From Thauera sp. (GTDB lineage Bacteria > Pseudomonadota > Gammaproteobacteria > Burkholderiales > Rhodocyclaceae), in assembly GCA_017302295.1 (NCBI GenBank), contig JAFLDS010000016.1, positions 21,486 through 85,485 of the forward strand: a DNA stretch of 64,000 nt. Reading direction: 5' to 3'. A program made the translations under genes and the position numbers. This document shows positions 26,629 through 54,577 of this stretch, one piece after another (positions within the stretch are counted from its first letter, which is position 1; each line of letters opens with the position of its first letter). Under the pieces are notes generated by a model that was not told the origin of the DNA, made no database searches, and saw only the letters and a program-made list of their open reading frames with translations.

Positions 26629-27219
26629 TTGAAGCGCATCCAGCCAGGTCTGATCGGCACGTGCCTGTGCCTTTCCATGTTTGCCGGGGGGGCCGGCGCG
26701 GTGGAGCCGATGGCGCCGCTCGCCACCATCGAGACGCTCGATGTGCCGCGTTACATGGGCAAGTGGTACGAGGTGGCGAAATTTCCCAACTGGTTCCAGA
26801 AGACGTGTGTCGGCGAGACGAATGCGGAATACCGCCAGCTCGACGACGGCCGGGTGCAGGTGGCCAACCGCTGTCGGCTGGAGAGCGGCGAGATGAACGA
26901 GGCGCTGGGCGTGGCGCGCCAGGTCGGGCCGGCGAACTCGCCCCGGCTAGAGGTGCGCTTTGCGCCCGCGTGGCTGAGCTTCATCCCGGCGGTGTGGGGC
27001 GATTACTGGGTGATCGATCTCGATCCCGACTACAGCCTGGTGGCGGTCAGCGAGCCGCGGCGCGAATATCTGTGGGTGCTGTCGCGCACGCCCCGGGTCG
27101 ATCCGCAACGCTATGAGGCCCTGCGCGCGCGGCTCGCGGCGAAGGGCTTCGACCTGAGCCGGCTCGAGCTGACCTCGCAGGGCTCGGCGTCGCAAGGTCC
27201 GGCGGCTCAGGCCAACTGA
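26629..27219 (+). CDS. blc: Lipocalin (Blc family), TTG start
   Basis: AAGGAG at 26617-26622 places the start at TTG 26629, giving 196 residues with a signal peptide ending near AGGAGA. The lipocalin signature MGKWYEVAKFPNWFQ, then the WVIDLDPDYS and LWVLSRTP strands, identify bacterial lipocalin Blc. No lipobox cysteine is seen, so it is probably a soluble periplasmic protein rather than the lipoprotein form. Blc proteins bind lysophospholipids or fatty acids and serve in membrane stress. In other proteobacteria lipocalins are among light-induced genes, but no light-regulator operator is visible here. Confidence 0.88.
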   Translation: MKRIQPGLIGTCLCLSMFAGGAGAVEPMAPLATIETLDVPRYMGKWYEVAKFPNWFQKTCVGETNAEYRQLDDGRVQVANRCRLESGEMNEALGVARQVGPANSPRLEVRFAPAWLSFIPAVWGDYWVIDLDPDYSLVAVSEPRREYLWVLSRTPRVDPQRYEALRARLAAKGFDLSRLELTSQGSASQGPAAQAN

Positions 27220-40338: not shown

Positions 40339-41250
40339 TCAAGCCAGGTGGGCGGCGCGCCACTCCGTCAGCGCGTTCACACTGTCCGCGAGGCTGGAGA
40401 CGATGCGGATCCCTGGCAAGCGCTTCTCTTTGCCCTTCACCGCCTCGCCGCCTGCCCAGATCGCGATCGTTGCAGGGAGCGTCATGCGCAGCTGGAGCAG
40501 ATCGTCTATCGCCTGTCGTGATGGATAGGCGGCACTGAAGGACAGTCCGACGACATCGAAGCCGCCATCGATGGCGGCGGTACGCAGGTCGGGCAGGGGC
40601 GTGCGTGTCCCCAGCGACAGGCAGCAGGCGCCTTCCGCGACCAGCGTCGCCTCGACCATCAGCAGGCCCAGCACGTGTTCCTCGTCAGGGAAAGTGGTGA
40701 GCAGCACCCGCGGGCGCGTGCCGACGCCCGCGTGCGCGCCGATCGCGCCGCGCAGCACGTTCTGCACCTGCTCGGTGTACAGGTGTTCCTCCGGCACGTC
40801 GATTTCACCGCGCATCCACGCCTCGCCGATGGCTTCGTTCAGCGGCGCCACGGTTTCGGCCGCAAAGCGCTGCAGCCCCTGCTTCAGCAAGGCCTGCCGC
40901 AGGGCCGCCGCGAGTTCGGCGCCGCGATGAAGGCGCACGTATTGCAACATCGACGTATCCGCCGCTGCCGCCTGGCGCGGGGTGTTCGCAACTTCGATCA
41001 TGGCCAGGAGGGCTTCACTGCTGGCGCCGATGATTTTCGCCGGTCGTTTGCCCTGGTCGATCAGGCGGCGGATCAGGCGCAGCTTCTCGACCTGATCGGC
41101 CGGGTAGAGGCGGTCGCCGCTGGCGTCACGCTCGGGCACCGGAAAGCCGTAGCGGCGCTCCCACACGCGCAGGGTGTCTTTGGAGATTCCGGTATCGCGC
41201 TCGACGGCAGCGATGCTCGACGCGGAGTCGAGTTTAGGTTGAATTTCCAT
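40339..41250 (-). CDS. litR: LitR/CarH-type B12-dependent light-sensing MerR regulator
   Basis: 303 residues from ATG 41250. The N-terminus is a MerR winged helix (ISKDTLRVWERRYGFPVPER). A helical bundle follows with the CarH light-sensing pattern W-x9-EH (Trp145, Glu155, His156). The Rossmann part has the cobalamin motif E-x-H-x2-G (Glu190, His192, Gly195). All residues that bind adenosylcobalamin and respond to light in CarH are kept. In characterised members the dark, B12-bound tetramer represses, and light releases it from DNA. An in-frame ATG at 41286 would put an operator inside the coding region; the ATG at 41250 with AGGA four bases upstream is preferred. It is divergent from an eleven-gene operon. 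Confidence 0.9.
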   Translation of the reverse strand: MEIQPKLDSASSIAAVERDTGISKDTLRVWERRYGFPVPERDASGDRLYPADQVEKLRLIRRLIDQGKRPAKIIGASSEALLAMIEVANTPRQAAAADTSMLQYVRLHRGAELAAALRQALLKQGLQRFAAETVAPLNEAIGEAWMRGEIDVPEEHLYTEQVQNVLRGAIGAHAGVGTRPRVLLTTFPDEEHVLGLLMVEATLVAEGACCLSLGTRTPLPDLRTAAIDGGFDVVGLSFSAAYPSRQAIDDLLQLRMTLPATIAIWAGGEAVKGKEKRLPGIRIVSSLADSVNALTEWRAAHLA

Positions 41251-41251
41251 T

Positions 41252-41264
41252 TTGTCCTGGACAA
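41252..41264. promoter_or_regulatory. LitR operator A
   Basis: TTGTCCTGGACAA is a perfect inverted repeat around a central base. It ends one base before the litR start codon and overlaps its ribosome site, and lies upstream of the -35 of the divergent promoter. The same core occurs at 41326 and 54564. Confidence 0.8.
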
Positions 41265-41279
41265 TCGTTCTCGTTGTGC

Positions 41280-41308
41280 TTGACATCGGGGTGCTGTGTT
41301 CCTATCTT
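41280..41308 (+). promoter_or_regulatory. Sigma-70 promoter for the light-regulated operon
   Basis: TTGACA at 41280-41285 and TATCTT at 41303-41308, 17 bp apart, a near-consensus pair. The predicted transcript starts near 41315, just ahead of operator B, so bound regulator would block elongation or initiation. Confidence 0.8.
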
Positions 41309-41332
41309 AGGGGTGCATCCTTTTTTTGTCCA
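41304..41332 (-). promoter_or_regulatory. Promoter of litR, sharing -10 with divergent promoter
   Basis: On the minus strand TGGACA (plus 41327-41332) and TAAGAT (plus 41304-41309) are 17 bp apart. The -35 is inside operator B and the -10 overlaps the opposite promoter's -10 by five bases, so the two promoters exclude each other. Confidence 0.7.
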
Positions 41333-41339
41333 GGACAAA
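41325..41339. promoter_or_regulatory. LitR operator B
   Basis: TTTGTCCAGGACAAA is a 15-bp perfect inverted repeat around a central A. It covers the -35 of the litR promoter and lies between the start point and the first start codon of the divergent operon. Centre to centre with operator A: 74 bp, about seven helical turns. Confidence 0.85.
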
Positions 41340-41343
41340 GACC

Positions 41344-41583
41344 ATGAGTACAAAATCAATCAAAGCGTGTCGGAACGTCGCCGCCGGGACAGCATTGGCG
41401 TTGATGCTCGTGGTGTTCACAAACCCGGCCGAGGAGGTCGGCGCGAGTGCTCTTGCTGGTTCCGACGCTGCTGTGTCGAAAGAGTTTGTCCACGACAATG
41501 ATCAGAAACACAGCCTTCAGACCATGCTCTTCCTGCATCGCCAGGGCATCATCGGCGCGCCCGTCGGAGGTGCGGACAAGTGA
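41344..41583 (+). CDS. Small secreted protein, first gene of the light-regulated operon
   Basis: 79 residues starting five bases after operator B. A signal peptide is evident (basic start, then AAGTALALMLVVFTN), with a mature part of about 45 residues (SDAAVSKEFVHDNDQKHSLQ, then TMLFLHRQGIIGAPVG). I know no family. As the first gene after the operator it should be the most strongly light-controlled. The stop overlaps the next start (GTGA). Confidence 0.7.
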   Translation: MSTKSIKACRNVAAGTALALMLVVFTNPAEEVGASALAGSDAAVSKEFVHDNDQKHSLQTMLFLHRQGIIGAPVGGADK

Positions 41584-42170
41584 CCGCCATCCGTTCGCGC
41601 ATGCGCCGCGTCGCGGCGGCAGCCCTGGTTTCGCTCGGGGCCGGATTGTCGACCGCGGTCCAGGCTGCGGAGCCGGCCCCGGCGTCCTGTCCGGCGCTCC
41701 TCGATCACCGCTTTCCCGCCTTGCAGGACGAGAGCCAGCAATCGTTGTGCCAGTACGCTGGCAAGGTGGTGCTGGTGGTCAACACCGCCAGCTATTGCGG
41801 CTACACCTCGCAATACGACGGCCTCGAGCGCCTCTATGACAAGTACCGCGCGCGCGGCTTGGTGGTGCTCGGCTTCCCGTCGAACGACTTCAAGCAGGAA
41901 CCCGGCAGCAACCAGGAGATTGCGGAGTTCTGTCGCAGCACCTACGGCGTGCGCTTCCCGATGTTCGCGCGCAGCACGGTAGCGGGTCGCCAGGCCAACC
42001 CGCTGTTCCTGCGCCTGGCCGAACTGAGCGGCGAACGCCCGCAATGGAATTTCCACAAGTACCTGATCGATCGCAGCGGCAGCAAGGTGACGAGCTTCCC
42101 CAGCCAGGTCTCGCCCGAGAGCCGCATCCTCGTCGGCAGCATCGAGAAGCTGCTCGACACCCAACCTTGA
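41580..42170 (+). CDS. Exported glutathione-peroxidase-family protein, GTG start
   Basis: 196 residues. The GTG at 41580 overlaps the preceding stop and has GGAGG seven bases upstream; an ATG at 41601 is also possible. A signal peptide runs to about AVQAAEP. The peroxidatic cysteine is Cys73 in NTASYCGYT. The usual second cysteine in FPCNQF is replaced by Ser101 (FPSNDF), so the thioredoxin-type resolving cysteine is missing and another reductant is needed. It probably removes lipid or hydrogen peroxides in the periplasm produced under light. Confidence 0.85.
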
Positions 42171-42219
42171 ACGCAGCACTTCTGCAACTCAGTCCAAGGC
42201 GAAGCCGCCGGGAGACCTC

Positions 42220-43047
42220 ATGAACGCACCAGACAAGTTCTTCCTGCCCGACGTGCAGGCCAGTAACGACACCCGAGCCCTCGCGATCCAGCAGGTCGGT
42301 GTGCGAGGCCTGCGCTACCCGCTGAGCGTGAGCGACGCGGACGGCCGCGTACAGCACACCGTGGCCACGATCGAAATGACGGTCGGGTTGCCGCCGCAGG
42401 TCAAGGGCACCCACATGTCGCGCTTCGTCGAAGTGCTCGAGGCGGAGCGCGGCGCGCTGAGCCTGGAAGGGCTGCGCGTGCTGTTCGTCGGCATGCTGCA
42501 GCGCCTCGAGGCGCGCAGCGGCCGCATCGAAGCGCGTTTCCCCTGGTTCGTGCGCAAGCAGGCGCCGGTGTCGGGCGTAGAGAGCCTGCTCGACATGGAT
42601 GCCACGGTGATCGTCGAGCAGGTCGAGGGCGGCCTCCCCGAAACGACGCTGAAGGTGGTGGTTCCGGTCACCAGCCTGTGCCCGTGTTCGAAGAGGATCT
42701 CGGAATACGGTGCGCACAATCAGCGCTCGCACATCACGCTCACCACCCGCCTGGCCGGTGACATCGGCCTGCTCGAGCTGGTGCGCATGGCCGAGGAAGA
42801 AGCCTCTTGCGAAGTGTTCGGCCTGCTGAAGCGGCCGGACGAGAAATGGGTGACCGAGCGCGCTTACGACAATCCCAAATTCGTCGAGGATCTGGTGCGC
42901 GACATCGCGCTGCGGCTGCGTGCCGACGAGCGTATCGCCGCATGGACGGTGGAGTCGGAGAACTTCGAATCCATCCACAACCATTCGGCCTATGCCTTGA
43001 TCGAGGGTGTGAACGCGCCGCCGGCGGCGCAGGCGGGACGGACATGA
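42220..43047 (+). CDS. folE2: GTP cyclohydrolase FolE2 (type IB)
   Basis: 275 residues with FolE2 motifs KGTHMSRF (from residue 62), SLCPCSK (Cys154, Cys156), and [11 protein letters not shown]. It converts GTP to dihydroneopterin triphosphate, the first step to tetrahydrofolate. FolE2 tolerates several metals and replaces zinc-dependent FolE under stress. In a light regulon it could raise folate for the methenyl-tetrahydrofolate antenna of photolyases. GGGAGACCTC precedes the ATG. Confidence 0.92.
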
Positions 43048-44396
43048 AACTGGGCGAGATCGAACGTGCGGCCGGCGGCCCTCGCCGGGTCGCAGTGATC
43101 GGCGGCGGCATCGCCGGTCTCGGCGCAGCGTGGCTGCTGTCCAGGCACCATCGCGTGACGCTGTTCGAGGCCGGCAGCTACGTGGGCGGCCACACCAATA
43201 CGGTGGATGTCGACATCGGCGGCGTATCGCATCCGGTCGACACCGGCTTCCTCGTCTTCAACCGTCGCACCTATCCCAACCTGTGCGCGCTGTTCGAGCA
43301 CCTGGGTGTTAAGCACGTCGAGAGCGAAATGAGTTTCGGCGTGAGCCTCGCCCATGCCGGCATCGAGTGGGCGGGGTCGGATCTCGGCACGGTGTTCGCG
43401 CAGCGTTCCAACCTGCTGCGTCCGGCCTTCCTCGGCATGTTGCGCGACATCCTGCGCTTCAATCGCGAGACGACCCGGATGGCGCGGGACGGCGATACGC
43501 CGGCGGTGAGCCTGGGCGACTATCTCGATGCCGGCCGCTACGGCGAGGCGTTCCGCGACTGGTACCTGCTGCCGATGGCGGCGGCGATCTGGTCGTGCCC
43601 GACGCGCACCATGCTCGACTATCCGCTCGCCACCTTCGTGCGCTTCTGTCATAACCACGGCCTGCTGCAGATCTTCGATCGTCCGCAGTGGCTCACCGTC
43701 GAGGGCGGCGGGCGGAGCTACGTGCGGCGCATCGTCGGCGAGCTCGACGACGTGCGCGTGGCGACCCCGGTGCACCGGGTCGAGCGCCATAGCGACGGCG
43801 TGTCGCTGTTTACCGACGCGGGTGGCGAGTTCTTTCACGAGGTGGTCTTCGCCTGCCACAGCGACCAGGCCTTGGCCATCCTCGGTGAGGGCGCCTCGCC
43901 TGCCGAGCGCCGCATCCTTGGCGCGGTGCGCTACCAGCCCAACGTCGCCCTGCTGCACACCGACACCGCGCTGCTGCCGCGCCGGCGCAAGGTCTGGTCG
44001 GCGTGGAACTACCTCGCCGGCGAGGGGCGGCCGGACGAGCGCCCGGTGTCGGTCAGTTACCTGATCAACCGCCTGCAGCCGCTGCCCTTCGACACGCCCG
44101 TCGTGGTGTCGCTGAATCCCTTCATCGAGCCGGCGCCGGACAAGCTGTTCCGTCGCATCGAGTACTCGCACCCGGTGTTCGATCAGGGCGCGATCGAGGC
44201 GCAGGCCGCGCTGCCGCGGATCCAGGGCGTTCAGCACAGCTGGTTCGCCGGTGCATGGACGGGCTACGGCTTTCACGAGGATGGTTTGAAGTCGGCGCTC
44301 GCCATCGCCGAGTCCTTCGGCGTTTCCATCCCCTGGCGTCAGGCGCAGGCGGCTGTGCCTGCTGCGGCGCCCGAGCCGCTGCGCGAGGCGGCCTGA
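43044..44396 (+). CDS. FAD-dependent amine-oxidase-like flavoprotein
   Basis: 450 residues; ATG overlaps the folE2 stop. N-terminal FAD motif [19 protein letters not shown] and GGHTNTVDV, with a C-terminal [23 protein letters not shown] segment. This family (NAD(P)/FAD-binding, amine-oxidase fold) is regularly adjacent to DUF1365 and cyclopropane-synthase genes in proteobacterial light and stress clusters. It is thought to modify membrane lipid acyl chains, e.g. furan fatty acid or related chemistry, but the reaction is not proven. Confidence 0.85.
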
Positions 44397-45199
44397 TGAA
44401 CGCGGGCCGCGCCCTGCCGGCGAGCTCGGGCTGCGACGCGTTCGCGCCTGCGGTGTGCTTCGGCGCCGTCATGCACGAGCGCCATGTGCAGGCGCACAAC
44501 CGCTTCATCTATCCGACCGCCTTCCTGCGCCTGCCCCTGTCGCGGCTCGACGCGCTGAAAGTGCCGCTGCTGGGCATCGGGCGGCCCAACCTGTTCGCTT
44601 TTCACAATCGCGACCACGGTCCGCGCGACGGCTCGCCGCTGCTGCCCTGGCTGCGCGACATCATCGCCCGCCGTGGGCTGGATGCGGCGTGCGACGGCGA
44701 AGTGGTGCTGCAAACCATGCCGCGCGTGCTGGGCTACGTGTTCAACCCGGTCAGCTTCTGGTTCTGCCACGATCGCAGCGGCGCGCTGCGGGTGGTGCTG
44801 GCCGAGGTGAACAACACCTTCGGCGAGCACCACAATTATCTCGTGCATCATCCCGACCTGCGCCCCATCGGGCATGACGACGAACTGGTGGCGCAAAAGC
44901 TGTTCCACGTGTCGCCCTTCTTCCCGCTGCGCGGCGAATACCGCTTCCGCTTCGAGGCGCGCGGTGCGGTGCATGCAGCCGCCATCGACCTGTGGGACGA
45001 CGGCGTGCACCAGCTCGCCACCCGCCTGTCGGGCCGCGCCGAAACCCTGGACGGGCGGGCGATGGCGAAATGGCTGCTGCGCCACCCGCTGATGACTCTG
45101 GGCGTGATCGCCCGCATCCACTGGCAGGCGCTGCGCCTGGCGCTGCGCCGGGTCAGCTTCCACCGCAAACCCGCGCCGCCGATCGAGGAGACCACCTGA
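44396..45199 (+). CDS. DUF1365 family protein
   Basis: 267 residues; start overlaps preceding stop. Typical DUF1365 features: MHERHVQAHNRFIYP at the start, GYVFNPVSFWFCHD, EVNNTFGEHHNYL, and QKLFHVSPFFP. Role unknown, consistently linked with the flavoprotein before it and the cyclopropane synthase after it, which implies a shared lipid modification path. Confidence 0.88.
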   Translation: MNAGRALPASSGCDAFAPAVCFGAVMHERHVQAHNRFIYPTAFLRLPLSRLDALKVPLLGIGRPNLFAFHNRDHGPRDGSPLLPWLRDIIARRGLDAACDGEVVLQTMPRVLGYVFNPVSFWFCHDRSGALRVVLAEVNNTFGEHHNYLVHHPDLRPIGHDDELVAQKLFHVSPFFPLRGEYRFRFEARGAVHAAAIDLWDDGVHQLATRLSGRAETLDGRAMAKWLLRHPLMTLGVIARIHWQALRLALRRVSFHRKPAPPIEETT

Positions 45200-46449
45200 T
45201 GAACGCCCTGGAAAACACCCTCGGCCCGCTGCTGCAACCGCTCGCCAGCGTCGCCGCCGAGCGCCTGCCGCGCGCCACCCGCCTGGCGCTTGAGATGCTC
45301 GACCGCCTGCAGGGCGGCGCGCTCGCCATCGAACTGCCCGATGGGCGTCATGTGCGTGCCGGCCACGGCGCCCTGGTTGCGCACCTGCGGGTGAGTGAGC
45401 ACGCGCTGTTCGACGAGACGCTTGCGCGCGGAGACATCGGCTTTGCCGAGACCTTCATGGACGGCCTGTGGCACACCGACGACCTCGCCGGTCTGCTCAC
45501 CCTGCTGTCGCGCAACCGCGCCACGCTCGATGCGGCGATCTACGGCCGCCTGCTCCGCCTGCTCGGCCACCGCCTCACTCACCTGCTGCGCGCCAACACC
45601 CGCGCCGGCGCGCGCCGCAACATCGAGGCGCACTACGACCTCGGCAATGATTTCTACGCGTTGTGGCTGGACCGCACGATGACCTACTCGGCGGCGGTGT
45701 TCGACGCCCCGGACGAGGCGCTGGAGGCTGCGCAACGGAGGAAGTACCGCCGCATCCTGACAAAGGTCGGCGCGCAGCCCGGGCAGACGGTGCTCGAGAT
45801 CGGCTGCGGCTGGGGCGGCTTTGCCGAAGTCGCCGCCACCGAGTTCGGCTGCCGCGTGCTGGGCCTGACGCTCTCTCCCGCCCAGCTCGCCTTCGCGCGC
45901 GAACGCGCCGAGCGCGGCGGCTATGCCGGGCAGGTGGATCTCGAATTGTGCGACTACCGCGATGTGCGCGGCCAGTACGACCACATCGTGTCGATCGAGA
46001 TGATCGAGGCGGTCGGCGAGCGCTTCTGGCCGACGTATTTCGCCCAACTGTCGGCGCTGCTCAAGCCCGGCGGGCGCTGCGCGGTGCAGGCGATCACCAT
46101 CGCCGACGCGCTGTTCGCCCGCTACCGCCGCGGCACCGACTTCATCCAGCGCCACATCTTCCCCGGCGGCATGCTGCCCAGCCCCGGTGCCGTGCAGCGC
46201 CAGGCGACGCGCGCCGGCCTGCAGGTGGTCGACGACTTCGCCTTCGGGCCGGACTATGCGCGCACGCTGGCACGCTGGCATGCGCGCTTCGACGCGCAGG
46301 CCGACGCGGTGCGGCAGCTTGGCTTCGACGAACGTTTCCTGCGCATGTGGCGCTTCTACCTCGCCTATTGCGAGGCGGGCTTCAACACCGGCGATATCGA
46401 CGTCCATCACTACACCTTCGAGCACGCGCGCGGAGGCGCGGGAGCATGA
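45199..46449 (+). CDS. cfa: Cyclopropane-fatty-acyl-phospholipid synthase family protein
   Basis: 416 residues. N-terminal lipid-binding domain, then a SAM methyltransferase core: NIEAHYDLGNDFYALWLD, TYSAAVF, VLEIGCGWGGFAEVAA, VSIEMIEAVGERFW, and C-terminal WRFYLAYCEAGF. It methylates unsaturated phospholipid chains with SAM to cyclopropane or related products. Membrane remodelling on exposure to light-derived singlet oxygen is a reasonable role. Confidence 0.92.
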   Translation: MNALENTLGPLLQPLASVAAERLPRATRLALEMLDRLQGGALAIELPDGRHVRAGHGALVAHLRVSEHALFDETLARGDIGFAETFMDGLWHTDDLAGLLTLLSRNRATLDAAIYGRLLRLLGHRLTHLLRANTRAGARRNIEAHYDLGNDFYALWLDRTMTYSAAVFDAPDEALEAAQRRKYRRILTKVGAQPGQTVLEIGCGWGGFAEVAATEFGCRVLGLTLSPAQLAFARERAERGGYAGQVDLELCDYRDVRGQYDHIVSIEMIEAVGERFWPTYFAQLSALLKPGGRCAVQAITIADALFARYRRGTDFIQRHIFPGGMLPSPGAVQRQATRAGLQVVDDFAFGPDYARTLARWHARFDAQADAVRQLGFDERFLRMWRFYLAYCEAGFNTGDIDVHHYTFEHARGGAGA

Positions 46450-46994
46450 AAACCCGGCGCGTGGCCTTGTGCGGTGTCCTGCTGGCCGCCTGGCTGGCAT
46501 GGCCGGTGGTGACCGTGGCGCGCAATCTGCCAGCGGCGGTCGAGGCGGCAGCGGGGCCGCTGCGACTGTCCGGCGAGGGTGAGATGCGCTGGCTGGGCTT
46601 CAAGCTCTACGATGCCGCGCTGTGGGTCGAACCGGGCGGGGTGGTGGCGTCAGCCGAGCATGCGCTCGCGATCCGCTACGCGCGTCCGATTGCCGCGGAG
46701 CGCCTGGTCGAAACCAGCCTCGACGAGATGCGCCGCCTCGGCGAGCGCGACGAGGTGCGACTGGCGCGCTGGCGCGGCGCGCTCGAGAGGGCGCTGCCTT
46801 CGGTCGCGGAAGGCGACACCCTGATCGGCCTGCACCGCCCGGGGCGCGGCGCGAGCTTCTGGCACCAGGGGCGGCTGACGGCGCACATCGACGACCCCGC
46901 GCTCGCGCGCGCCTTCTTCGCCATCTGGCTGGACGAACGCACGCGCGAACCGGCGCTGCGCGCGCGCCTGCTCGGGCTCGCGGAGCCGCAGTGA
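46446..46994 (+). CDS. Chalcone-isomerase-like exported protein
   Basis: 182 residues; ATG overlaps the cfa stop. Signal peptide to about VTVARN, then a CHI-like domain (LSGEGEMRWLGFKLYDAALWV). Bacterial proteins of this kind bind fatty acids or unknown ligands rather than isomerise chalcones. Location in this operon suggests lipid handling in the periplasm. Confidence 0.82.
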   Translation: MKTRRVALCGVLLAAWLAWPVVTVARNLPAAVEAAAGPLRLSGEGEMRWLGFKLYDAALWVEPGGVVASAEHALAIRYARPIAAERLVETSLDEMRRLGERDEVRLARWRGALERALPSVAEGDTLIGLHRPGRGASFWHQGRLTAHIDDPALARAFFAIWLDERTREPALRARLLGLAEPQ

Positions 46995-48340
46995 TGGATG
47001 CCGGCGCGTTCGGCCGCGGGGCGATCCTGGCCTACGGCGCGCTCGGCCTGCCGCTGGCCTTCGCCGCGCTGCCCCTGTACGTGCATGTGCCGCGGCTCTA
47101 TGCCGGCGAGGTCGGGCTGTCGCTTGCCACCGTCGGCGCGGTGCTGCTGGCGGCGCGCATCGTGGACGCGGTGACAGATCCGCTGATCGGCTGGGCGAGC
47201 GATCGCATCCGTGGCCGGCGCGGGCTCCTGCTCGTCGCCTGCCTGCTGCTCGGGCTCAGCTTGCCAGCCCTGCTGTCGCCGCCGGCGGACGCAGGCGTGG
47301 GCTGGCTGTTCGGCTTCATCGTGCTGGTGTCGCTCGCCTATTCGGTGGCGTCCATCGCATACAGCGCGTGGGGCGCGGAGGTGGCGCCGACGCCCGACCT
47401 GCGCACCCGCTTCGTCGCCGCGCGCGAAGGCTTCGCGCTGCTCGGCGTGGTGCTGGCGGCGGCCTTGCCCGCGGTGCTCGCGCAGGGCGCGGGCGAGGCG
47501 GCCGGGCTGGCGCGGCTGTCCTGGATCTTCCTGCCGTTGCTGCTGGCCTGTGCCGCATGGACCCTGCTCGGTGCGCCGGCCGCGCCAGTGCATGCGGGCC
47601 GCGGCCAGTCGGTGTGGGGCGGTCTCGCCGGCGCCCTGCGCGATGGCGCCTTCGTCCGCCTGCTCGCGGTGTTCGCGGTGAACGGCATCGCCGCGGCGGT
47701 GCCGTCTGCCACGGTGCTGTTCTTCGTTGCCGATGTGCTGCAGGCGGACGATCGCGCGGCCGGCGCCTTCCTGGTGCTGTATTTCGCCGCCGCGGCGGCC
47801 AGCCTGCCGCTGTGGGTGGCGCTGTCTCGGCACCTGGGCAAGCTGCGTGCCTGGCTTGCCGGCATGGTGCTTGCCGTTGCGGTGTTCGTGTGGGCGGGAC
47901 TGCTGGGCAGCGGCGATCTGCTCGCCTACGGCGCGATCTGCGTGCTGTCGGGCGTCGCGCTCGGCGCCGACCTGTCGCTGCCGCCGTCGCTGCTCGCCGA
48001 CCTGCTGGCACGAAGCCAGGAGATGGGAGCCGGAGGCGCGGAGGCGAGGGGCGGCGGTGTTCGCGCCGGTGCCTGCTTCGGCTGGTGGAACTTCGTCACC
48101 AAGGCCAACCTCGCCTTGGCCGCCGGCCTGGCGCTGCCGCTGCTCGCCGCGCTCGGCTACGCGCCCGGTGCGCGCGACGCCGATGCGACGGCCGCGCTGG
48201 CGATGGTGTATGCCGGGCTGCCGGTCGTGTTGAAGCTCGGCGCGGTGGTGCTGCTGTGGCGCTGGCGCGGACAAATCGAGCCGGTTGCCGCGGCGACGGA
48301 TTCTGCGGCTGCGGCCGCTTTGCGGGAGGTGAGATCGTGA
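46994..48340 (+). CDS. MFS transporter of the GPH/MelB-like type
   Basis: 448 residues, twelve membrane helices. Family marks: VDAVTDPLIGWASDRIRGRRG between helices II and III and SIAYSAWGAEVAPTPDLRTR. GPH/MelB members move sugars with cations, but those within lipid clusters are proposed to move lipids or lipid precursors. Start overlaps preceding stop. Confidence 0.85.
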   Translation: MDAGAFGRGAILAYGALGLPLAFAALPLYVHVPRLYAGEVGLSLATVGAVLLAARIVDAVTDPLIGWASDRIRGRRGLLLVACLLLGLSLPALLSPPADAGVGWLFGFIVLVSLAYSVASIAYSAWGAEVAPTPDLRTRFVAAREGFALLGVVLAAALPAVLAQGAGEAAGLARLSWIFLPLLLACAAWTLLGAPAAPVHAGRGQSVWGGLAGALRDGAFVRLLAVFAVNGIAAAVPSATVLFFVADVLQADDRAAGAFLVLYFAAAAASLPLWVALSRHLGKLRAWLAGMVLAVAVFVWAGLLGSGDLLAYGAICVLSGVALGADLSLPPSLLADLLARSQEMGAGGAEARGGGVRAGACFGWWNFVTKANLALAAGLALPLLAALGYAPGARDADATAALAMVYAGLPVVLKLGAVVLLWRWRGQIEPVAAATDSAAAAALREVRS

Positions 48341-48891
48341 TCTGGAGGGCGATGCGAGGTGTCCTGTTCCTTGTTGCCGGCCTGCTCGGGCTGGCGCTGA
48401 TGGGAGGTTGTTCGACGGTGGATATCGGGAAATATCGCAGCGAGACGCCGGTGCTCGATCTGCGCGACTACTTCAATGGCACGCTCGACGCGCACGGCAT
48501 CTTCCAGGACCGCTCGGGCGAGGTGGTGAAGCGCTTCCACGTCGTCATCGAGGCGAGCTGGCAGGGCGAAGTCGGCACGCTCGACGAGCGCTTCACCTAT
48601 TCCGACGGCAGCACCCAGCGCCGCGTGTGGACCATCACCCACCTCGGCAACGGCCGCTACCGCGGAACGGCCGACGACGTCGTGGGCGAGGCGCAGGGCG
48701 AAGCGGCCGGTAACGCCCTGCGCTGGCGCTACGTGCTGGCGCTGCCGGTCGATGGCAAGGTGTACAACGTCGACTTCGACGACTGGATGTTCCTCATGGA
48801 CCAGCGCGTGATGCTGAACCGCTCGGTGATGAGCAAGTGGGGCTTCCGCCTCGGCGAGGTCACGCTATCCTTCTACAAGCGGGGCGGATGA
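48337..48891 (+). CDS. DUF3833 putative lipoprotein, GTG start
   Basis: 184 residues from GTG 48337 after GGAGGTGA and overlapping the MFS stop. The N-terminus has a signal with a lipobox-like LMGGCS. Body shows DUF3833 strands (LDLRDYFNGTLDAHGIFQDR, YVLALPVDGKVYNVDFDDWM). Probably outer-membrane anchored. No known activity; conserved in light/lipid operons. Confidence 0.85.
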   Translation: MIWRAMRGVLFLVAGLLGLALMGGCSTVDIGKYRSETPVLDLRDYFNGTLDAHGIFQDRSGEVVKRFHVVIEASWQGEVGTLDERFTYSDGSTQRRVWTITHLGNGRYRGTADDVVGEAQGEAAGNALRWRYVLALPVDGKVYNVDFDDWMFLMDQRVMLNRSVMSKWGFRLGEVTLSFYKRGG

Positions 48892-49679
48892 TGGCCCTGC
48901 TGCCGCCGATGAATCGGCCCATCCGTGACTGGCAGGGGCAGCGTGTGTGGATCGTCGGCGCATCGAGCGGCATCGGCGCGGCGCTGGCCAGGGCGCTGGC
49001 GGTGCGCGGCGCGTGGGTGGCGGTGTCGGCGCGCAATCGCGAGGCGCTGCAGGCGGTGGCGGCCGATTGCGGGATCTCCGCGGTGGTCGAGCCGCTGGAC
49101 CTGACCATGCCGGACGATTTCCTGCGCGTGCGTGACGCCTTGCTGATGCGCTGGGGGCGGCTCGACCTCGTCGTGTTCAACGCCGGAACCTATCGCCCGC
49201 TGCGTGCCTGGTCGCTGACGATCCCGGCCATTCGCGAGACGCTGCAGACCAACCTCCTTGGCACGATGGAGGGCGTCGCCGCGCTGGCGCCGATGTTCAG
49301 CGCCCAGGGTGCCGGCGCGATCGCGCTCGTCGGCAGCGTCGCCGGCTACGGCGGCCTGCCCAAGGCGACGGTGTACGGCCCGTCCAAGGCGGCGCTGATC
49401 AACTTCGCCGAAACGCTGTACCTGGACCTTGCGCCGCGCGGCGTGTCGGTCTTCCTGGTCAACCCCGGCTTCGTCGCCACGCCGCTGACCGCGCAGAACG
49501 ACTTCCACATGCCGGCGCTGCTGACGCCGGAGCAGGCGGCCGAGGCGATGATCGCGGGTTTCGCGCGCGGCGCCTTCGAGATCCACTTCCCGAAGCGCTT
49601 CACCGGCGTGCTCAAGCTGTTGAGCCTGCTGCCGCGGCGGCTGTACTTTCCGCTGATCCGCAAGGTGACGGGGCTATGA
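48888..49679 (+). CDS. Short-chain dehydrogenase/reductase
   Basis: 263 residues; start ATG 48888 overlaps the preceding stop, with another ATG next to it. Gly-rich GASSGIGAALA for NAD(P), NAG motif (FNAGTYRP), catalytic Ser (VGSVAG) and Tyr-Lys (VYGPSKAALINF). A regular SDR with all catalytic residues. Likely reduces a lipid-derived carbonyl. Confidence 0.9.
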   Translation: MMALLPPMNRPIRDWQGQRVWIVGASSGIGAALARALAVRGAWVAVSARNREALQAVAADCGISAVVEPLDLTMPDDFLRVRDALLMRWGRLDLVVFNAGTYRPLRAWSLTIPAIRETLQTNLLGTMEGVAALAPMFSAQGAGAIALVGSVAGYGGLPKATVYGPSKAALINFAETLYLDLAPRGVSVFLVNPGFVATPLTAQNDFHMPALLTPEQAAEAMIAGFARGAFEIHFPKRFTGVLKLLSLLPRRLYFPLIRKVTGL

Positions 49680-50131
49680 CGATGCGGCGTGACCCCATTG
49701 CCCCCGCCGACTGCAGCGAGGGCGTGGCCGCGCTGGCGCATTTCTACGAGACGCTGCAGCCGGCCTCGCTGGCGCGCGTCGGCGAGCTGTACGCCCCCGA
49801 CGCGCGCTTCAAGGATCCGTTCAACGAGGTCGTCGGCATTCCCGCCATCTCACGCATCTTCGAGCATATGTTCGCCACCGTGGCGGCGCCGCGCTTCGTC
49901 GTCACCACCCGCATCGTACAGGGCCGGGAGGCGATGCTGGGCTGGGATTTCCACCTGCGGCTGTCGGGCCGCGACACGGTGATCCGCGGTGTGACCCACC
50001 TGCAGTTCGACGAGGCCGGGCGGGTGGTGTTGCACCGGGACTACTGGGACGCGGCCGAGGAACTCTATGCCCGCCTGCCGATCATCGGCGGGCTGATGCG
50101 CTGGCTGCGGCGCAAGCTGTCGAGCGGGTGA
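49676..50131 (+). CDS. NTF2-like/SnoaL-fold protein
   Basis: 151 residues; start overlaps the SDR stop. Pattern of NTF2-like cone: FYETLQPASLARVGELYAPD, FKDPFNEVVG, and C-terminal VVLHRDYWDAAEELY. Last gene of the eleven-gene operon. Such proteins act as small isomerases or ligand binders; exact role unknown. Confidence 0.88.
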   Translation: MTMRRDPIAPADCSEGVAALAHFYETLQPASLARVGELYAPDARFKDPFNEVVGIPAISRIFEHMFATVAAPRFVVTTRIVQGREAMLGWDFHLRLSGRDTVIRGVTHLQFDEAGRVVLHRDYWDAAEELYARLPIIGGLMRWLRRKLSSG

Positions 50132-50167
50132 ACGCGGGCCAAAAGGTGCGGAAGGTGCCCGGAATCC

Positions 50168-50273
50168 GGTCTGGCGGCGGGGGTTGCGCTCCGTCGGGCT
50201 GCGGAACTCGACCTCGCTTCGCTCGGGACTCGAACAGTCCTCGCCCGCTCCGCGCATCCCCCGCCGCCAGACC
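50168..50273. repeat. 106-bp dispersed repeat, copy 1
   Basis: The ends are perfect inverted repeats, GGTCTGGCGGCGGGGG at 50168 and its complement ending at 50273, with matching inner bases TGCGC. The same 106-bp sequence, inverted and with a few changes, lies at 61156-61261. It sits between the light operon and the methyltransferase gene. Nature not identified: REP-like or a miniature mobile element. Confidence 0.85.
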
Positions 50274-50403
50274 TGCCGCATTGCGTGCTCCAGGGTACGT
50301 AACAGCCCAGGGCGTCTGGCTGTGATGCCGAGTTTGCGATCTGCAGCCGATCCTGCTATCCAGCACCTTTTGCCGTGACCGACGTCCGCGCCACCCGCCC
50401 CGC

Positions 50404-51258
50404 ATGAACATCGTCCCCTTCCAGTCCCTCGCCTGTCCGCTCGACGGCGCGTCCTTGCAGCGCAGCGGCGCGGCGTGGCGCTGCTCCTCCGGCCACAGCT
50501 TCGACATCGCCCGCGAAGGCCACACCCATCTGCTGCCGGTACAGAACAAGCGCTCGCGCGATCCCGGCGACAGCAAGGAGATGGTGGCCGCGCGGCGGCG
50601 TTTCCTGAAGGCGGGCTGCTACCAGCCGATCGCGGCGGCGGTGGCGCGCACCGTGCTGCAGCACCTGCCGACCGGCGGCGCCTGCCTCGATGCGGGCTGC
50701 GGCGAAGGCTATTACCTGCGCCAGCTGGCCGACGCTGCTGCGGCGGCGGCTGTCGCAGGCGAGGGCAGGCTGGCGTTGCTCGGGCTGGATATCTCGAAGT
50801 GGGCGGTGCTCGCGGCGGCGAAGCCCTTCCGTGACGCCGGCTGGGTGGTGGGCAGCAATGCCAACCTGCCGGTGCTGGCGGCGACGCTGGACTGCGTGCT
50901 GTGCATGTTCGGTTTTCCGGTTTATGCGGAGTTTGCCCGCGTGCTGAAGCCGGGCGGGCTGCTGCTGCAGGTCGATGCCGGGCCGGATCATCTGCGCGAG
51001 CTGCGCGAGATCATCTACCCGGCGCTGAAGCCCGAGCGAGCGGCCGACGAGGCGCCGCCTGCGGGGTTCGAGCGCGTCTCCACCGAAAGCCTGCGCTTTG
51101 CGCTGCCTCTGGCCGACCCGGCGCAGATCGCCGACCTGCTGGTGATGACTCCCCACCTGTACCGCGCCACTGCCGAAGGCCGCGCGCGGGCGGCGGCGCT
51201 GACGGCGCTGGACGTGACCGTCGACGTGCGCCTGGTCAGCCTGGTGCGCCGACACTGA
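50404..51258 (+). CDS. rlmA: RlmA-like 23S rRNA (guanine-N1) methyltransferase
   Basis: 284 residues. RlmA pattern: N-terminal zinc-finger region CPLDG to WRCSSGHSFD, then GHTHLLPVQNKRSRDPGDS, ARRRFLKAGCYQPI, SAM motif CLDAGCGEGYYL. It modifies G745 in domain II of 23S rRNA in E. coli. One zinc cysteine is changed (CPLC to CPLD), so the finger may be altered. Starts 270 bp after the light operon, separated by the repeat. Confidence 0.85.
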   Translation: MNIVPFQSLACPLDGASLQRSGAAWRCSSGHSFDIAREGHTHLLPVQNKRSRDPGDSKEMVAARRRFLKAGCYQPIAAAVARTVLQHLPTGGACLDAGCGEGYYLRQLADAAAAAAVAGEGRLALLGLDISKWAVLAAAKPFRDAGWVVGSNANLPVLAATLDCVLCMFGFPVYAEFARVLKPGGLLLQVDAGPDHLRELREIIYPALKPERAADEAPPAGFERVSTESLRFALPLADPAQIADLLVMTPHLYRATAEGRARAAALTALDVTVDVRLVSLVRRH

Positions 51259-51282
51259 TCCCGGCTGCGCGTCCGCGTTGCG

Positions 51283-52815
51283 CTAAAGCGCGTCCAGCCG
51301 CGCGCGCAGGCTCGCAGCCTGGGTGGTGAGCGCGTCGCGCGTCGCCGCGTCCATCTTCGCCAGCTGGCGATACACCATGCCCAGCCGGTGGTTGTTGCCC
51401 ATGCGATCGGCGTGGCGGGAGAAGAAATCCCAGTACAGCGCGTTGAACGGGCAGGCGCGCGCGCCGGTGCGCGCCTTCTTGTCGTAGTGGCAACCCTTGC
51501 AGTAGTCGCTCATGCGGTCGATGTAGGCCGCGCTCGACACATAGGGCTTGGTGGCGAGCAGGCCGCCGTCGGCGTGCTGGCTCATGCCCAGCGTGTTGGG
51601 CAGTTCCACCCATTCGAAGGCGTCGATGTAGACGCCCAGGTACCAGCGGTGCACCGCCTGCGGCGACAGGCCGGCGAGCAGCGCGAAGTTGCCGATCACC
51701 ATCAGGCGCTGGATGTGGTGCGCATAGGCGTGCTCCAGCGACTGGCCGATCGAGTGGGCGAGGCAGCGCATGCGCGTCTGCCCGGTCCAGAACCAGGCTG
51801 GCAGCGGCGCATCGTGGCCCAGTGCGTTGTGTTCGACATAGCCGGGCATGTGCGCCCAATACACGCCGCGCACGTATTCGCGCCAGCCCAGGATCTGGCG
51901 GATGAAGCCTTCGGCCGCCGCCAGCGGGACGCGGCCGTCGCGCCAGGCGGCTTCCGCTTTCGCCACCACCTCGCGCGGGTTCAGCATCTTGACGTTGAGC
52001 GCGAAGGACAGCAGTGAGTGGAAGAGCCGCGTGCTGCGCAGGCTCATCGCGTCCTGGAAGTCGCCGAAGTGCGGCAGGGCCGCGTCGATGAAGGCGTCGA
52101 GCTGGGCCAGCGCCTCGTCGCGGTTCAGCGGCCAGGCCAGGCGGTCGGCAGCGGGGTCGCCGAAGCTGCGCACGCCGGCGGCGACGATGGTCTGCCACAG
52201 CGCGGAATGGTCGTGCCGGACGCGCGGGTCGGCGGGCACGTAGGGGATGCCCGGCCAGGGCTTGCGGTTGTCGTGGTCGAAGTTCCACTGGCCGCCGGCC
52301 GGCTTGCCGGCAGCATCCATCAGCACGCCGTGGCGCCAGCGCATGTGGCGGTAGAAATGCTCCATCAGCCACTGCTTGCGGCCTTCGAACAGCGCCGCGT
52401 CCTCGTCGCGCGCGGTGTAGAAGTGTTCGCTGTCGACCGCCTGCGCCGGGATTGCGAGCTGGCGGGCGTAGTCGGCGAGCTGCGCGTCGAGCCGCCACTC
52501 GTCGGGCGACTGCCATTCGAGGGCGGTGGCGTGGTGGGCGGCGATCGCCGCGTCGAGGTTCGCGGGCAGCGACTGGCGGTTGTCGGCGTCGTCGATGGCG
52601 AGGTAATGCACGCGGTGGCCGGCCGCGCGCAGTTGGCGCGCGAAGTCGCGCATGGCGGCGAAGATGGCGAGGATCTTCTGCGCGTGGTGCAGCACGTAGT
52701 CGGTTTCCTGGCGCACTTCCATCATCAGGTAGACGACGTCGTCGCGCCGGGTGTCGAACCAGGAATGGCGCGGGTCGAGCTGGTCGCCGAGGATCAGGCG
52801 CAGGCAGGTGCTCAT
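51283..52815 (-). CDS. Iron-sulfur bacterial cryptochrome/photolyase (PhrB-like, 6-4 type)
   Basis: 510 residues from ATG 52815. N-terminal LRLILGDQLDPRHSW and the C-terminal YCKGCHYD with ACPFNALYWDFF mark the FeS-BCP group. The four iron-sulfur cysteines are Cys351, Cys439, Cys442 and Cys455, one residue offset from those of Agrobacterium PhrB. Known members repair (6-4) photoproducts with FAD, a ribolumazine antenna and a [4Fe-4S] cluster. Third gene of the operator-C operon; start overlaps DUF2256 stop. Confidence 0.92.
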   Translation of the reverse strand: MSTCLRLILGDQLDPRHSWFDTRRDDVVYLMMEVRQETDYVLHHAQKILAIFAAMRDFARQLRAAGHRVHYLAIDDADNRQSLPANLDAAIAAHHATALEWQSPDEWRLDAQLADYARQLAIPAQAVDSEHFYTARDEDAALFEGRKQWLMEHFYRHMRWRHGVLMDAAGKPAGGQWNFDHDNRKPWPGIPYVPADPRVRHDHSALWQTIVAAGVRSFGDPAADRLAWPLNRDEALAQLDAFIDAALPHFGDFQDAMSLRSTRLFHSLLSFALNVKMLNPREVVAKAEAAWRDGRVPLAAAEGFIRQILGWREYVRGVYWAHMPGYVEHNALGHDAPLPAWFWTGQTRMRCLAHSIGQSLEHAYAHHIQRLMVIGNFALLAGLSPQAVHRWYLGVYIDAFEWVELPNTLGMSQHADGGLLATKPYVSSAAYIDRMSDYCKGCHYDKKARTGARACPFNALYWDFFSRHADRMGNNHRLGMVYRQLAKMDAATRDALTTQAASLRARLDAL

Positions 52816-52961
52816 GCGGTGCTCCTGGCACTGCGGCGGCAGCGTTCCGAGCACCACTTCACCTGTTCCCAGTCGCGTGTCCATTTCTTGCGCCAGGCGA
52901 AGGGGCGCCCGCAGTGGGCGCAGGTCCTGGTCGGCAGGTCGGCTTTGCGGCGCATGCCCAT
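52812..52961 (-). CDS. DUF2256 small zinc-ribbon protein
   Basis: 49 residues, start ATG 52961 directly after the stop of the preceding gene (TAAATG) with GGAG within that gene's last codons. Sequence MGMRRKADLPTRTC, CAHCGRPFAWRKKW, then WCSERCRR: two CxxC-type pairs of a zinc ribbon. DUF2256 genes typically accompany photolyase genes. The stop overlaps the start of the iron-sulfur photolyase. Confidence 0.9.
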   Translation of the reverse strand: MGMRRKADLPTRTCAHCGRPFAWRKKWTRDWEQVKWCSERCRRSARSTA

Positions 52962-54488
52962 TTACCACTCCAGGCTGAGCTGACGGTCGGTGCCCGCGCG
53001 GCGGGGGCGGCGCGCCTCCGGGCGCTTGCGCGAGCCGTGTTTCTTGACGATCGCCGCCTTGGCGGCACGCACTTCGGGCTGGGCGCGCAGCGCATGCACG
53101 CGGGCCTTGGCGGCGCGGGTGGCGGTTTCCAGGTCCACGAGCGGCGCGGCGATGTCCTCGCCCACGCGCACGCCGCAGCGCTGCTGGATGTCGGCTGGCA
53201 TGCGCCAGGGCTCGAACAGCCAGGCGTCGGGCACGCGGCGCATCGCCGGCAGCCACCGGCGCACGAAGCGGCCCTCCGGGTCGTGGTCGCGCGCCTGCTT
53301 CACCGGGTTATAGACGCGGGTGGTGTTGATGCCGGTGGTGCCCGACTGCATCTGCATCTGGCTCCAGTGGATGCCCGGTTCGTAGTCGAGGAACTGCCGC
53401 GCCAGCCATTCGCCGACCGGGCGCCAGTGCAGCCAAAGCGGATAGGCGGCCACCGACACCAGCATCGCGCGCATGCGGAAGTTCAGCCAGCCGGTCTCGC
53501 GCAGCATCGCCACGCAGGCATCGACCAGCGGCCAGCCGGTGCGCCCGGCCACCACCGCATCGAAATGCGCCGGGTTCCAGTCCGGCTCGCGCAGGCCGTC
53601 GTAGCCGCGATGCAGGTTGCGGAACTCGAGCTCAGGTTCGCTCTCGAGCTTCTGAATGAAATGGCAGTGCCAGTAAAGGCGGCTGAGGAAGGCGGCGAGG
53701 CCCTTGCGGCGGCGTTCGTCGGCCGGCGGTAAGGCTTCGATTTCAGCGCGCGTCGCCTGCACCACCTCGCGCAGGCTCAGGCAGCCCCAGGCGAGGTAGG
53801 GCGATAGCCGCGAGCAGGCGCTGGGCGCCGACAGCGGCGAAGAGATGCCTCCGCGGTACTGGCCGCTGCGCTCGGACAGAAAACTGTGCAACACGTCGAG
53901 CGCGGCGTGGCGCCCGCCCGGCTGGCGGCGTGGCGGATCGTCGTCGAGCAGGCCCAGTCCGGAGGCGTCGGGGGGCGGCGTTTCGGTCCAGGGCAGCGAG
54001 GCGGACTCGATGTGTGCGGGCAGGTCGTGCCGGGCGGCGGCGACATGCGCTTCCCAGCGCCCCCGCCAGGTGTCGCGGTCGTGCAGGCGGCGGACCACGC
54101 CGAACTGCGGGTACTCGTGCCAGGCGACGCCATGGCCTCGGCACCAGGTGGCCACCGCGCGGTCGCGTGTGTAGCTGGCGCCGTTGCCGGTCTCCTCGTG
54201 CGAGTGCAGCGCGGCGAAAGGCGCCAGCGCGTGCAGGCGGTCGAGCACCGCGACCGCCTCGCCAGTGACGACGTGCAGCCTTCCGCCGTGCTGGCGCAAG
54301 GCGGCGTAGAGCTCGCGCAGGCTCTCGATCACGAAACGGTAGTGCTGGCTGGCCGCGTCTGGCTGCGCCCACAGGCCGGGTTCGACGATGTACAGGCACA
54401 GCACCCGTCCGCGCGCGGCGGCGTGCGCGAGCGCGGCGTGGTCGTGCAGGCGCAGGTCGCGCTTGAACCAGACGACTTGGTAGCTCAT
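52962..54488 (-). CDS. Cryptochrome/photolyase family protein with altered substrate residues
   Basis: 508 residues. N-terminal antenna domain (VVWFKRDLRLHDHAALAHA) and FAD domain (RTGWPLVDACVAMLRETGW, DHDPEGRFVRRWLP). The usual class I photolyase substrate glutamate (E274 in E. coli) aligns with Arg270 ahead of Trp273, and the GGWQW loop with the tryptophan of the electron chain is replaced by HWSQMQMQSGTTGINTTRVY. Thus it is not a typical CPD repair enzyme; it may be a cryptochrome-like or unusual repair protein. Basic C-tail (KKHGSRKRPEARR) suggests nucleic-acid contact. First gene after operator C. Confidence 0.88.
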   Translation of the reverse strand: MSYQVVWFKRDLRLHDHAALAHAAARGRVLCLYIVEPGLWAQPDAASQHYRFVIESLRELYAALRQHGGRLHVVTGEAVAVLDRLHALAPFAALHSHEETGNGASYTRDRAVATWCRGHGVAWHEYPQFGVVRRLHDRDTWRGRWEAHVAAARHDLPAHIESASLPWTETPPPDASGLGLLDDDPPRRQPGGRHAALDVLHSFLSERSGQYRGGISSPLSAPSACSRLSPYLAWGCLSLREVVQATRAEIEALPPADERRRKGLAAFLSRLYWHCHFIQKLESEPELEFRNLHRGYDGLREPDWNPAHFDAVVAGRTGWPLVDACVAMLRETGWLNFRMRAMLVSVAAYPLWLHWRPVGEWLARQFLDYEPGIHWSQMQMQSGTTGINTTRVYNPVKQARDHDPEGRFVRRWLPAMRRVPDAWLFEPWRMPADIQQRCGVRVGEDIAAPLVDLETATRAAKARVHALRAQPEVRAAKAAIVKKHGSRKRPEARRPRRAGTDRQLSLEW

Positions 54489-54541
54489 GTCCGATCGAAG
54501 AAGGCGGTGTGGTGCGACGCGGGGAGGCGCCCTTCAATCGG

Positions 54542-54570
54542 ATGATAGCCTGTGAGCTCCTATTTGTCCT
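54542..54570 (-). promoter_or_regulatory. Promoter of photolyase operon
   Basis: On the minus strand AGGACA (plus 54565-54570) and TATCAT (plus 54542-54547) are 17 bp apart. The -35 lies inside operator C, the same layout as at litR. The start point would be near 54535, about 47 bases before the ATG. Confidence 0.75.
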
Positions 54571-54577
54571 GGACAAA
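54563..54577. promoter_or_regulatory. LitR operator C
   Basis: TTTGTCCTGGACAAA is a perfect 15-bp inverted repeat with a central base, matching operators A and B. It overlaps the -35 of the photolyase-operon promoter. It links the two operons 13 kb apart to one regulator. Confidence 0.85.

Follow-up and report, generated by a model that had tools for sequence, protein, structure and literature searches.

In CarH, the operator consists of tandem 11-bp nnnnTnnACAn direct repeats (PMC9304148; this and the other articles are cited here from excerpts). In the CarH protein of Thermus thermophilus (TtCarH), the histidine following a conserved tryptophan, found in many CarH proteins but not in all, is the upper cobalt ligand after light (PMC10442372). 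A LOV protein lifts the repression exerted by another LitR protein, PmlR2 of Pseudomonas mendocina (PMC9758184). The inverted repeats proposed for CarA are retained, within the excerpt, only in Myxococcus species plus one other, and the same operator stretch can also be read as 11-bp direct repeats (PMC9304148). We analysed a 64,000-nucleotide stretch of a Thauera sp. draft genome (contig JAFLDS010000016.1; hereafter the window), in which a litR gene faces a divergent operon of eleven open reading frames (ORFs), a photolyase operon lies further along, and a palindrome, TTTGTCC-W-RGACAAA, recurs at their promoters. We propose, with a probability of roughly 0.8, that this palindrome is the operator of LitR, an autoregulated, adenosylcobalamin (AdoCbl)-dependent repressor that light would release from litR, the divergent operon and the photolyase operon.

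The window was searched with the pattern TTTGTCCNGGACAAA, allowing up to three mismatches, and the reversed pattern served as a control. Four matches were retrieved; 100 shuffles of the window gave a mean of 0.70 matches, with four reached in only one of them. The first-pass annotation of this DNA had placed three palindromes at promoters. All three are real, although the first spans 41251-41265, and the window holds a fourth at 41485-41499. The four matches and the promoter elements around them, the latter read from the sequence, are:

41251..41265, strand not applicable: operator O1, TTTGTCCTGGACAAT, one mismatch (pattern scan and paired-operator geometry)
41280..41285, plus strand: operon promoter -35, TTGACA, 22 bp from the TnnACA of O1
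41303..41308, plus strand: operon promoter -10, TATCTT, after a 17-bp spacer and 16 bp ahead of O2
41304..41309, minus strand: litR promoter -10, TAAGAT, on the opposite strand of the operon -10
41327..41332, minus strand: litR promoter -35, TGGACA, inside O2
41325..41339, strand not applicable: operator O2, TTTGTCCAGGACAAA, perfect (pattern scan)
41485..41499, strand not applicable: operator-like O3, TTTGTCCACGACAAT, two mismatches, inside a small ORF and 160 bp from O2
54542-54547, minus strand: photolyase promoter -10, TATCAT
54565-54570, minus strand: photolyase promoter -35, AGGACA, inside the operator (AGGACA-N17-TATCAT)
54563..54577, strand not applicable: photolyase-operon operator, perfect (pattern scan), containing the -35 AGGACA

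O1 adjoins the probable litR start codon (ATG at 41250), includes the AGGA of litR and lies upstream of the operon -35, and O2 includes the AGGA preceding the small-ORF ATG at 41344. With the photolyase -35 inside 54563-54577, this agrees with the earlier placement of the sites on promoter or ribosome-site elements. Together, O1 and O2 bracket a TTGACA-N17-TATCTT operon promoter. In the genome scan that the annotation had called for, covering the draft genome (4,110,904 bases, 53 contigs), the only two perfect copies are both within the window, and at up to one mismatch there are five sites against none for the control. At up to three mismatches, 48 sites were found against 76 for the control, showing no enrichment, so near-perfect copies alone are informative.

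Of the 199 family genomes, 80 encode LitR; in a class sample of 274 genomes, the search at E 1e-40 found it in seven (the window's included). Another 80 named LitR loci were kept out of 111 relatives; these loci include Thauera, Parazoarcus, Azoarcus, Zoogloea, Niveibacterium, Uliginosibacterium, Accumulibacter, Rhodocyclus and Noviherbaspirillum; the closest by LitR are two metagenome-assembled genomes (85 and 84%) and Thauera sp. 2A1 (83%), which points to a Thauera-like organism. After short-upstream and duplicate loci were dropped, the pooled set comprised 149 distinct litR loci with at least 200 bp upstream each. Of these loci, 134 have a site with up to three mismatches in the 200 bp next to litR, compared with three for the reversed pattern. 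At least two sites are present in 109 loci, and a pair 62-65 or 72-77 bp apart in 105, while the reversed pattern never gave two sites. The operator is perfect in 46 loci, and the 63-bp pair is retained at 41% LitR identity (L155 and L156; L, G and C numbers are our handles for loci, genomes and contigs). Operator pairs are also present at plasmid litR loci of Azoarcus sp. KH32C and Eleftheria terrae; the plasmid loci of Comamonas and Caballeronia have a weak single site only. A BLUF-domain gene (L293 363-761) lies about 3.2 kb from the LitR homologue of Comamonas endophytica, a locus with such a weak single site. One contig (G188:C178) carries two litR genes about 4 kb apart (L051 and L061), each with its own operators.

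Promoter statistics were computed on 107 distinct O1-O2 pairs, using a script that sought the best hexamers. The operon -35 is TTGACA in 74 pairs, TTGACG in 15 and TTGACT in ten, the commonest -10 is TATCTT (40 pairs), and the spacer is 17 bp in 90 pairs, a length that the script mildly favoured. The gap from the -10 to O2 is 16 bp in 84 pairs, and that from O1 to the -35 is mostly 3 or 14 bp. O1 and O2 are 63 bp apart in 63 pairs and 74 bp apart in 19, with smaller numbers at 62 and 64 bp (six each), 75 bp (five) and some further values; a quick tree implies at least five switches between the 63 and 74 classes. O2 provides the litR -35 (TGGACA or TAGACA) in 98 pairs, and a litR -10 matching TATAAT in at least four of six positions lies 17 bp away in 79 pairs, against 0-23 at the other spacers from 12 to 22 bp; this -10 is the operon -10 read on its opposite strand. 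We also scanned 50 operator sites from distal, phr and short-chain dehydrogenase/reductase (SDR) loci, six of them at litR promoters and 44 away from litR. TAnnnT lies exactly 17 bp from the embedded -35 in 17 of the 44 sites away from litR, the window's phr included, and at any other spacer (12 to 23 bp) in 0 or 1 of the 50. Since these near-consensus 17-bp promoters overlap the operator, they point to repression rather than to activation in the manner of classical MerR proteins, which act on promoters with 19-20-bp spacers. The palindrome recurs in many related bacteria and keeps a rigid position within their promoters, so that it very probably serves as the operator of a single light-response regulon.

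The palindrome also depends on the presence of litR. At up to one mismatch, the 80 litR-bearing genomes contain 196 sites against 14 for the control, a total that includes the sites at litR itself, whereas the 119 genomes lacking litR contain 40 against 47, both counts being uncorrected for kinship among genomes. Five litR-less genomes have two or three sites (G001, G124, G136, G146 and G197), with no perfect copy and no close pair among them; they have no LitR, only two weak matches (best E 2.7e-5). The other 28 litR-less genomes with sites have one each. The proposal of a regulon defined by a shared operator thus holds well: the site accompanies litR, exceeds chance only where litR is present, and precedes orthologues of the same genes in other genomes.

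A further link to the family lies in the sequence of the palindrome. One of its strands reads TnnACA, the CarH subsite, in 101 of the 107 O1 copies (75 in the operon direction, including the window's, and 26 in the litR direction) and in 101 of the 107 O2 copies (98 in the litR direction). Upstream of T. thermophilus carH, the repeat scan recovers TnnACA at -46, -35 and -24, and the TTTGTCC palindrome is absent there. The operon -35 TTGAC begins 11 bp from the O1 TnnACA in 65 pairs and 22 bp from it in 19; in this 11-bp register, the jump from 63 to 74 bp therefore corresponds to one turn of the helix and, equally, to the length of a CarH repeat. In seven of the 149 loci (L074, L078, L080, L082 and L085-L087), each with a 74-bp pair, three TnnACA follow one another in tandem at 11-bp steps, in O1, in a middle slot and at the -35; across the 74 class, the middle slot is TnnACA in nine of 29 pairs. 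These seven promoters carry both operator plans, with the O1 palindrome somewhat degraded and O2 kept. By sequence they connect the palindrome with a CarH-type protein, and they resemble intermediates, in either direction, between direct-repeat and inverted-repeat plans. LitR is, on these grounds, very likely the protein that binds the palindrome.

The sensor is encoded next to O1:

40339..41250, minus strand: litR, MerR-type helix-turn-helix with B12-binding_2 and B12-binding domains (Pfam; alignment to CarH)

LitR has 303 aa from the ATG at 41250, the open frame extending to 41286. It matches MerR_1 (PF13411, 52.9 bits) and B12-binding_2 (PF02607, 29.3 bits, cut-off 23), and its residues 11-288 align to T. 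thermophilus CarH (5c8d) at 3e-31. With 135.9 bits, it does not reach the cut-off of 400 of the NCBIfam CarH equivalog NF052513 and is a family relative outside that equivalog. The recognition helix R28-x-W30-E-R-R-Y34 (RxWERRY) is present. Trp145, Glu155, His156, Glu190, His192, Gly195, Gly267 and Gly268 are invariant in 85 of 85 aligned LitR rows, all of which match the published distances of the B12 motif (E190xH192xxG195, 41 residues to S237, GG at 267-268). The residues for AdoCbl and light response had been described as kept; this is correct for Wx9EH, ExHxxG and GG, but SxS replaces SxT/V and a methionine stands for the light-state histidine. B12-binding_2 matches in the window genome are restricted to LitR and a 1292-aa open frame, taken as MetH; no second LitR-like B12-binding_2 protein was found in that genome with this profile. 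A PduO-type adenosyltransferase is encoded in the same genome. Control by AdoCbl and light would follow from the known mode of the LitR/CarH family.

The divergent operon has the eleven genes originally counted, running away from litR:

41344..41583, plus strand: small ORF of 79 aa, the first gene, with a signal-peptide-like start by inspection and no Pfam match
41580..42170, plus strand: glutathione peroxidase, gpx (PF00255, 2.8e-30)
42220..43047, plus strand: GTP cyclohydrolase FolE2 (NF010200, 277 bits, exceeding the cut-off of 215)
42807..44396, plus strand: FAD/NAD(P)-binding oxidoreductase ORF, amine oxidase family (PF01593, 7.5e-16), start probably downstream of 42807
44003..45199, plus strand: DUF1365 protein ORF (PF07103, 7.9e-76), start probably downstream of 44003
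44992..46449, plus strand: cyclopropane-fatty-acid synthase family ORF (PF02353, 1.4e-87), start probably downstream
45663..46994, plus strand: chalcone-isomerase-like ORF (PF16036, 1.8e-10), start probably downstream
46622..48340, plus strand: MFS_2 transporter ORF (PF13347, 2.5e-57), start probably downstream
47368..48891, plus strand: DUF3833 protein ORF (PF12915, 5e-70), start probably downstream
48837..49679, plus strand: SDR oxidoreductase (PF00106, 8.4e-40)
49676..50131, plus strand: SnoaL-like protein, the last gene (PF12680, 1.1e-17)

A scan of the region after the SnoaL gene gave nothing useful. An equivalent of O3 lies 140-175 bp from O2 in 42 of 119 distinct loci, compared with none for the reversed pattern. 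In 32 of the 42 loci, it falls in frame within an ORF 66 aa or longer, where it mostly encodes V-x-D. O3 may serve as an operator, as a peptide motif of a fast-changing, secreted-looking small ORF, or as both.

The photolyase operon, whose promoter is given above, comprises:

52962..54488, minus strand: DNA photolyase, phr (PF03441, 9.2e-60; PF00875, 9.9e-26)
51283..52816, minus strand: photolyase-related ORF, with no Pfam match at E 0.001, whose orthologues adjoin operators in L136, L144 and L145; we take it to be cryB-like

Orthologues of phr (E 1e-60) are present in 21 of the 199 genomes, every one of them among the 80 that bear litR (a locus count that omits a second fragment, L251).

To these can be added operators located far from litR. 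Twenty distal operator regions were fetched and the regulon genes sought by tblastn; genes of the window regulon were found in seven of them, listed in the first four lines below:

L133, L135: gpx-folE2-FAD oxidoreductase
L146: gpx
L136, L144, L145: photolyase-related gene
L148: phr
L134, L151: the SDR of contig C23 (see below)
L147: DUF3429
L149, L150: DUF2189
L140, L142: fasciclin
L138: lipocalin
L139, L141: membrane-looking protein with no Pfam match

Three further regions (L137, L143 and L152) look like chance or unexplained matches. In L133 (2974-3062), the gpx-folE2-FAD oxidoreductase operon stands apart from litR with its own operator pair, exactly 74 bp apart. Fasciclin-domain genes adjoin the operator in three loci (L140, L142 and L294), the one in Eleftheria being divergent from litR itself.

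Outside the window, the draft genome has four sites with up to two mismatches: C23:26978 (one), C23:26902 (two), C2:62500 (one) and C34:56944 (two). The C23 sites (G000 C23:26902-26916 and 26978-26992; L016 6903 and 6979) are 76 bp apart before an SDR gene. Orthologues of this C23 SDR occur in 14 of the 199 genomes, all 14 among those with litR; 11 have an operator (up to two mismatches) upstream, and in the remaining three a litR gene immediately precedes the SDR. The C23 SDR is thus, by its sequence context, a predicted additional regulon member outside the window. On G188:C178, this SDR directly follows one of the two litR genes. The C34 site (G000 C34:56944-56958; L018 5945) is operator-like and lies where the start codon of a DUF2189 membrane protein gene probably is. 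C2:62500 sits in an apparent coding frame and was put down to chance.

The data above establish the operator, how well it is conserved, how it is placed in its promoters, that it depends on genomes carrying litR, and which B12 motifs LitR retains; on this basis, several mechanistic steps can be proposed. Without light, LitR loaded with AdoCbl would sit on O1 and O2, and perhaps on O3. There it would cover both the operon promoter between O1 and O2 and the litR promoter running the other way, whose -10 is shared and whose -35 falls within O2. LitR would thereby repress its own gene and the eleven-ORF operon, and it would repress the photolyase operon by covering the embedded -35. Light would cleave the Co-C bond of AdoCbl, LitR would release the DNA, and genes for membrane lipids, peroxide defence, folate and photorepair would be expressed. 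We infer repression by LitR from the overlap of promoters and operators.

Several observations weigh against this proposal. The B12-binding domain of LitR scores 27.9 bits, below the Pfam cut-off of 32.1. Ser237-x-Ser239 stands in 85 of 85 rows where the published LitR/CarH motif has SxT/V (PMC9304148). The residue after the tryptophan is Met146 in the window LitR and, across the 149 loci, Met in 66, Leu in 36, Val in 12, Glu in 11 and His in a single one (L158, 39% identical to the window LitR). TtCarH without that histidine (H132A) is described as mostly still tetrameric after light (PMC10442372), although the same article cites an opposite earlier result, in which H132A disassembled in light. 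Fifteen of the 149 loci have no site in the 200 bp (L097, L100-L102, L158, L204, L205, L207, L223, L226, L231, L232 and L235-L237), and 11 of these are 46-53% identical to the window LitR; L097 has a shorter operator core at the start codon. Window positions 41201-41360 contain no CarH-type triple of tandem 11-bp TnnACA, and the co-occurrence of site and litR is, as stated, counted without correction for kinship. Only six of the 21 phr loci, the window's included, have an operator within 400 bp upstream; seven more (L240-L245 and L260) have one about 1 kb upstream, and the remaining eight have none within the available upstream stretch.

Some of these points would fit a LitR that binds the operators and yet obeys another signal, such as redox, a LOV or BLUF partner as in class II, or the level of free B12. 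The LOV-dependent relief of PmlR2 (PMC9758184), the histidine missing in 148 of 149 loci together with the poor disassembly of TtCarH H132A (PMC10442372), and the BLUF gene close to the Comamonas homologue speak for such a signal. The invariance of W, EH, ExHxxG and GG in all 85 rows speaks against it, as do the description of class II proteins as being without the second B12 domain (PMC9758184) and the earlier report of light disassembly of H132A (cited in PMC10442372); we consider this explanation unlikely. That the palindrome instead belongs to a separate, unlinked transcription factor that also controls litR could be argued from the different build of CarH operators. It is, however, very improbable given that 134 of 149 loci, some with LitR identity as low as about 41%, have the site close to litR, that litR-less genomes hold chance numbers only, that O1 and O2 contain the CarH subsite in 101 of 107 copies each, and that in seven loci a tandem row of three 11-bp TnnACA begins with O1.

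O1 might also be an activator site, with LitR at about -46 or -57 aiding polymerase. Upstream activator sites likewise step by one helical turn, and O1 moves 11 bp relative to the -35 at least five times on the quick tree. However, the operon promoter, with TTGACA-N17, is close to consensus as it stands, the inferred start is upstream of O2, and the phr and litR operators overlie the -35, where a bound protein would block, so activation appears improbable. The AGGA ahead of a start codon inside both O1 and O2 could suggest RNA hairpins masking the ribosome sites of litR and the small ORF. At phr and 16 other sites, however, the palindrome contains the -35 of a promoter whose -10 is 17 bp away, and it would therefore lie outside the transcript, and by inspection a stem on so short a loop is weak; we give hairpins hardly any credence.

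Returning to LitR as an AdoCbl-dependent, light-released repressor, a broader evolutionary reading, somewhat less likely than not, can be offered tentatively. It holds that a widespread betaproteobacterial branch of B12-type LitR altered both ends of the CarH mechanism, combining an inverted-repeat operator with DNA release after light without the histidine. As parts of the same tentative whole, the -35 would lie in the ancestral 11-bp register, promoters with both plans would be intermediate, and the LitR assembly would bracket one core promoter for two divergent genes.

If the proposed LitR operator is correct, it would provide an operator code by which B12-LitR light regulons could be read from sequence in Thauera, Azoarcus, Zoogloea, Accumulibacter and relatives, and it would reveal promoters caught between direct-repeat (CarH) and inverted-repeat plans. 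The clade would be a sharp natural test case, having B12 photoreceptor motifs without the light-state histidine, and the compact two-operator promoter might become a light switch for soil and wastewater bacteria.

Compared with known systems, LitR resembles CarH of T. thermophilus and Bacillus megaterium in its MerR helix-turn-helix with R-x-W-E-R-R-Y, its B12-binding_2 and B12-binding domains, and Wx9EH, ExHx2G and GG. The carH gene of T. thermophilus also has a divergent neighbouring gene pair that includes phr, and seven of our 149 loci have three tandem TnnACA ending in the -35. It differs in that CarH uses tandem direct repeats where the window locus has an inverted-repeat palindrome, and in that TtCarH has a histidine after the tryptophan where this clade mostly has Met or Leu. 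Class II LitR proteins (PplR1-3 of P. putida and PmlR2) share the light-induced photolyase, CryB, FolE and fatty-acid enzyme, as well as two sites around a sigma-70-like promoter, P6650, at the -35 and after the start (PMC9758184). However, their operator is T(G/A)TACA-N12-TGTA(C/T)A (PMC9758184), found in none of the 149 loci nor in window positions 41201-41360; they are described without a second B12 domain, and PmlR2 acts with a LOV protein (PMC9758184). Class III LitR of Burkholderia multivorans is likewise betaproteobacterial, but its C-terminus shows no similarity to the functional domain (PMC9758184). CarA of Myxococcus xanthus has proposed inverted repeats upstream of and over the -35 but is B12-independent and lacks an intact Wx9EH (PMC9304148). 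The operator thus differs from those of CarH and class II as excerpted, as had been suspected, and in titles and abstract openings from the open PMC literature no TGTCC(A/T)GGACA operator was found reported, although an earlier description outside that literature is possible. While the gene content resembles that of published LitR light regulons, the operator class, the two-operator promoter with its shared -10, the mixed promoters and the nearly clade-wide loss of the light-state histidine appear to be new.

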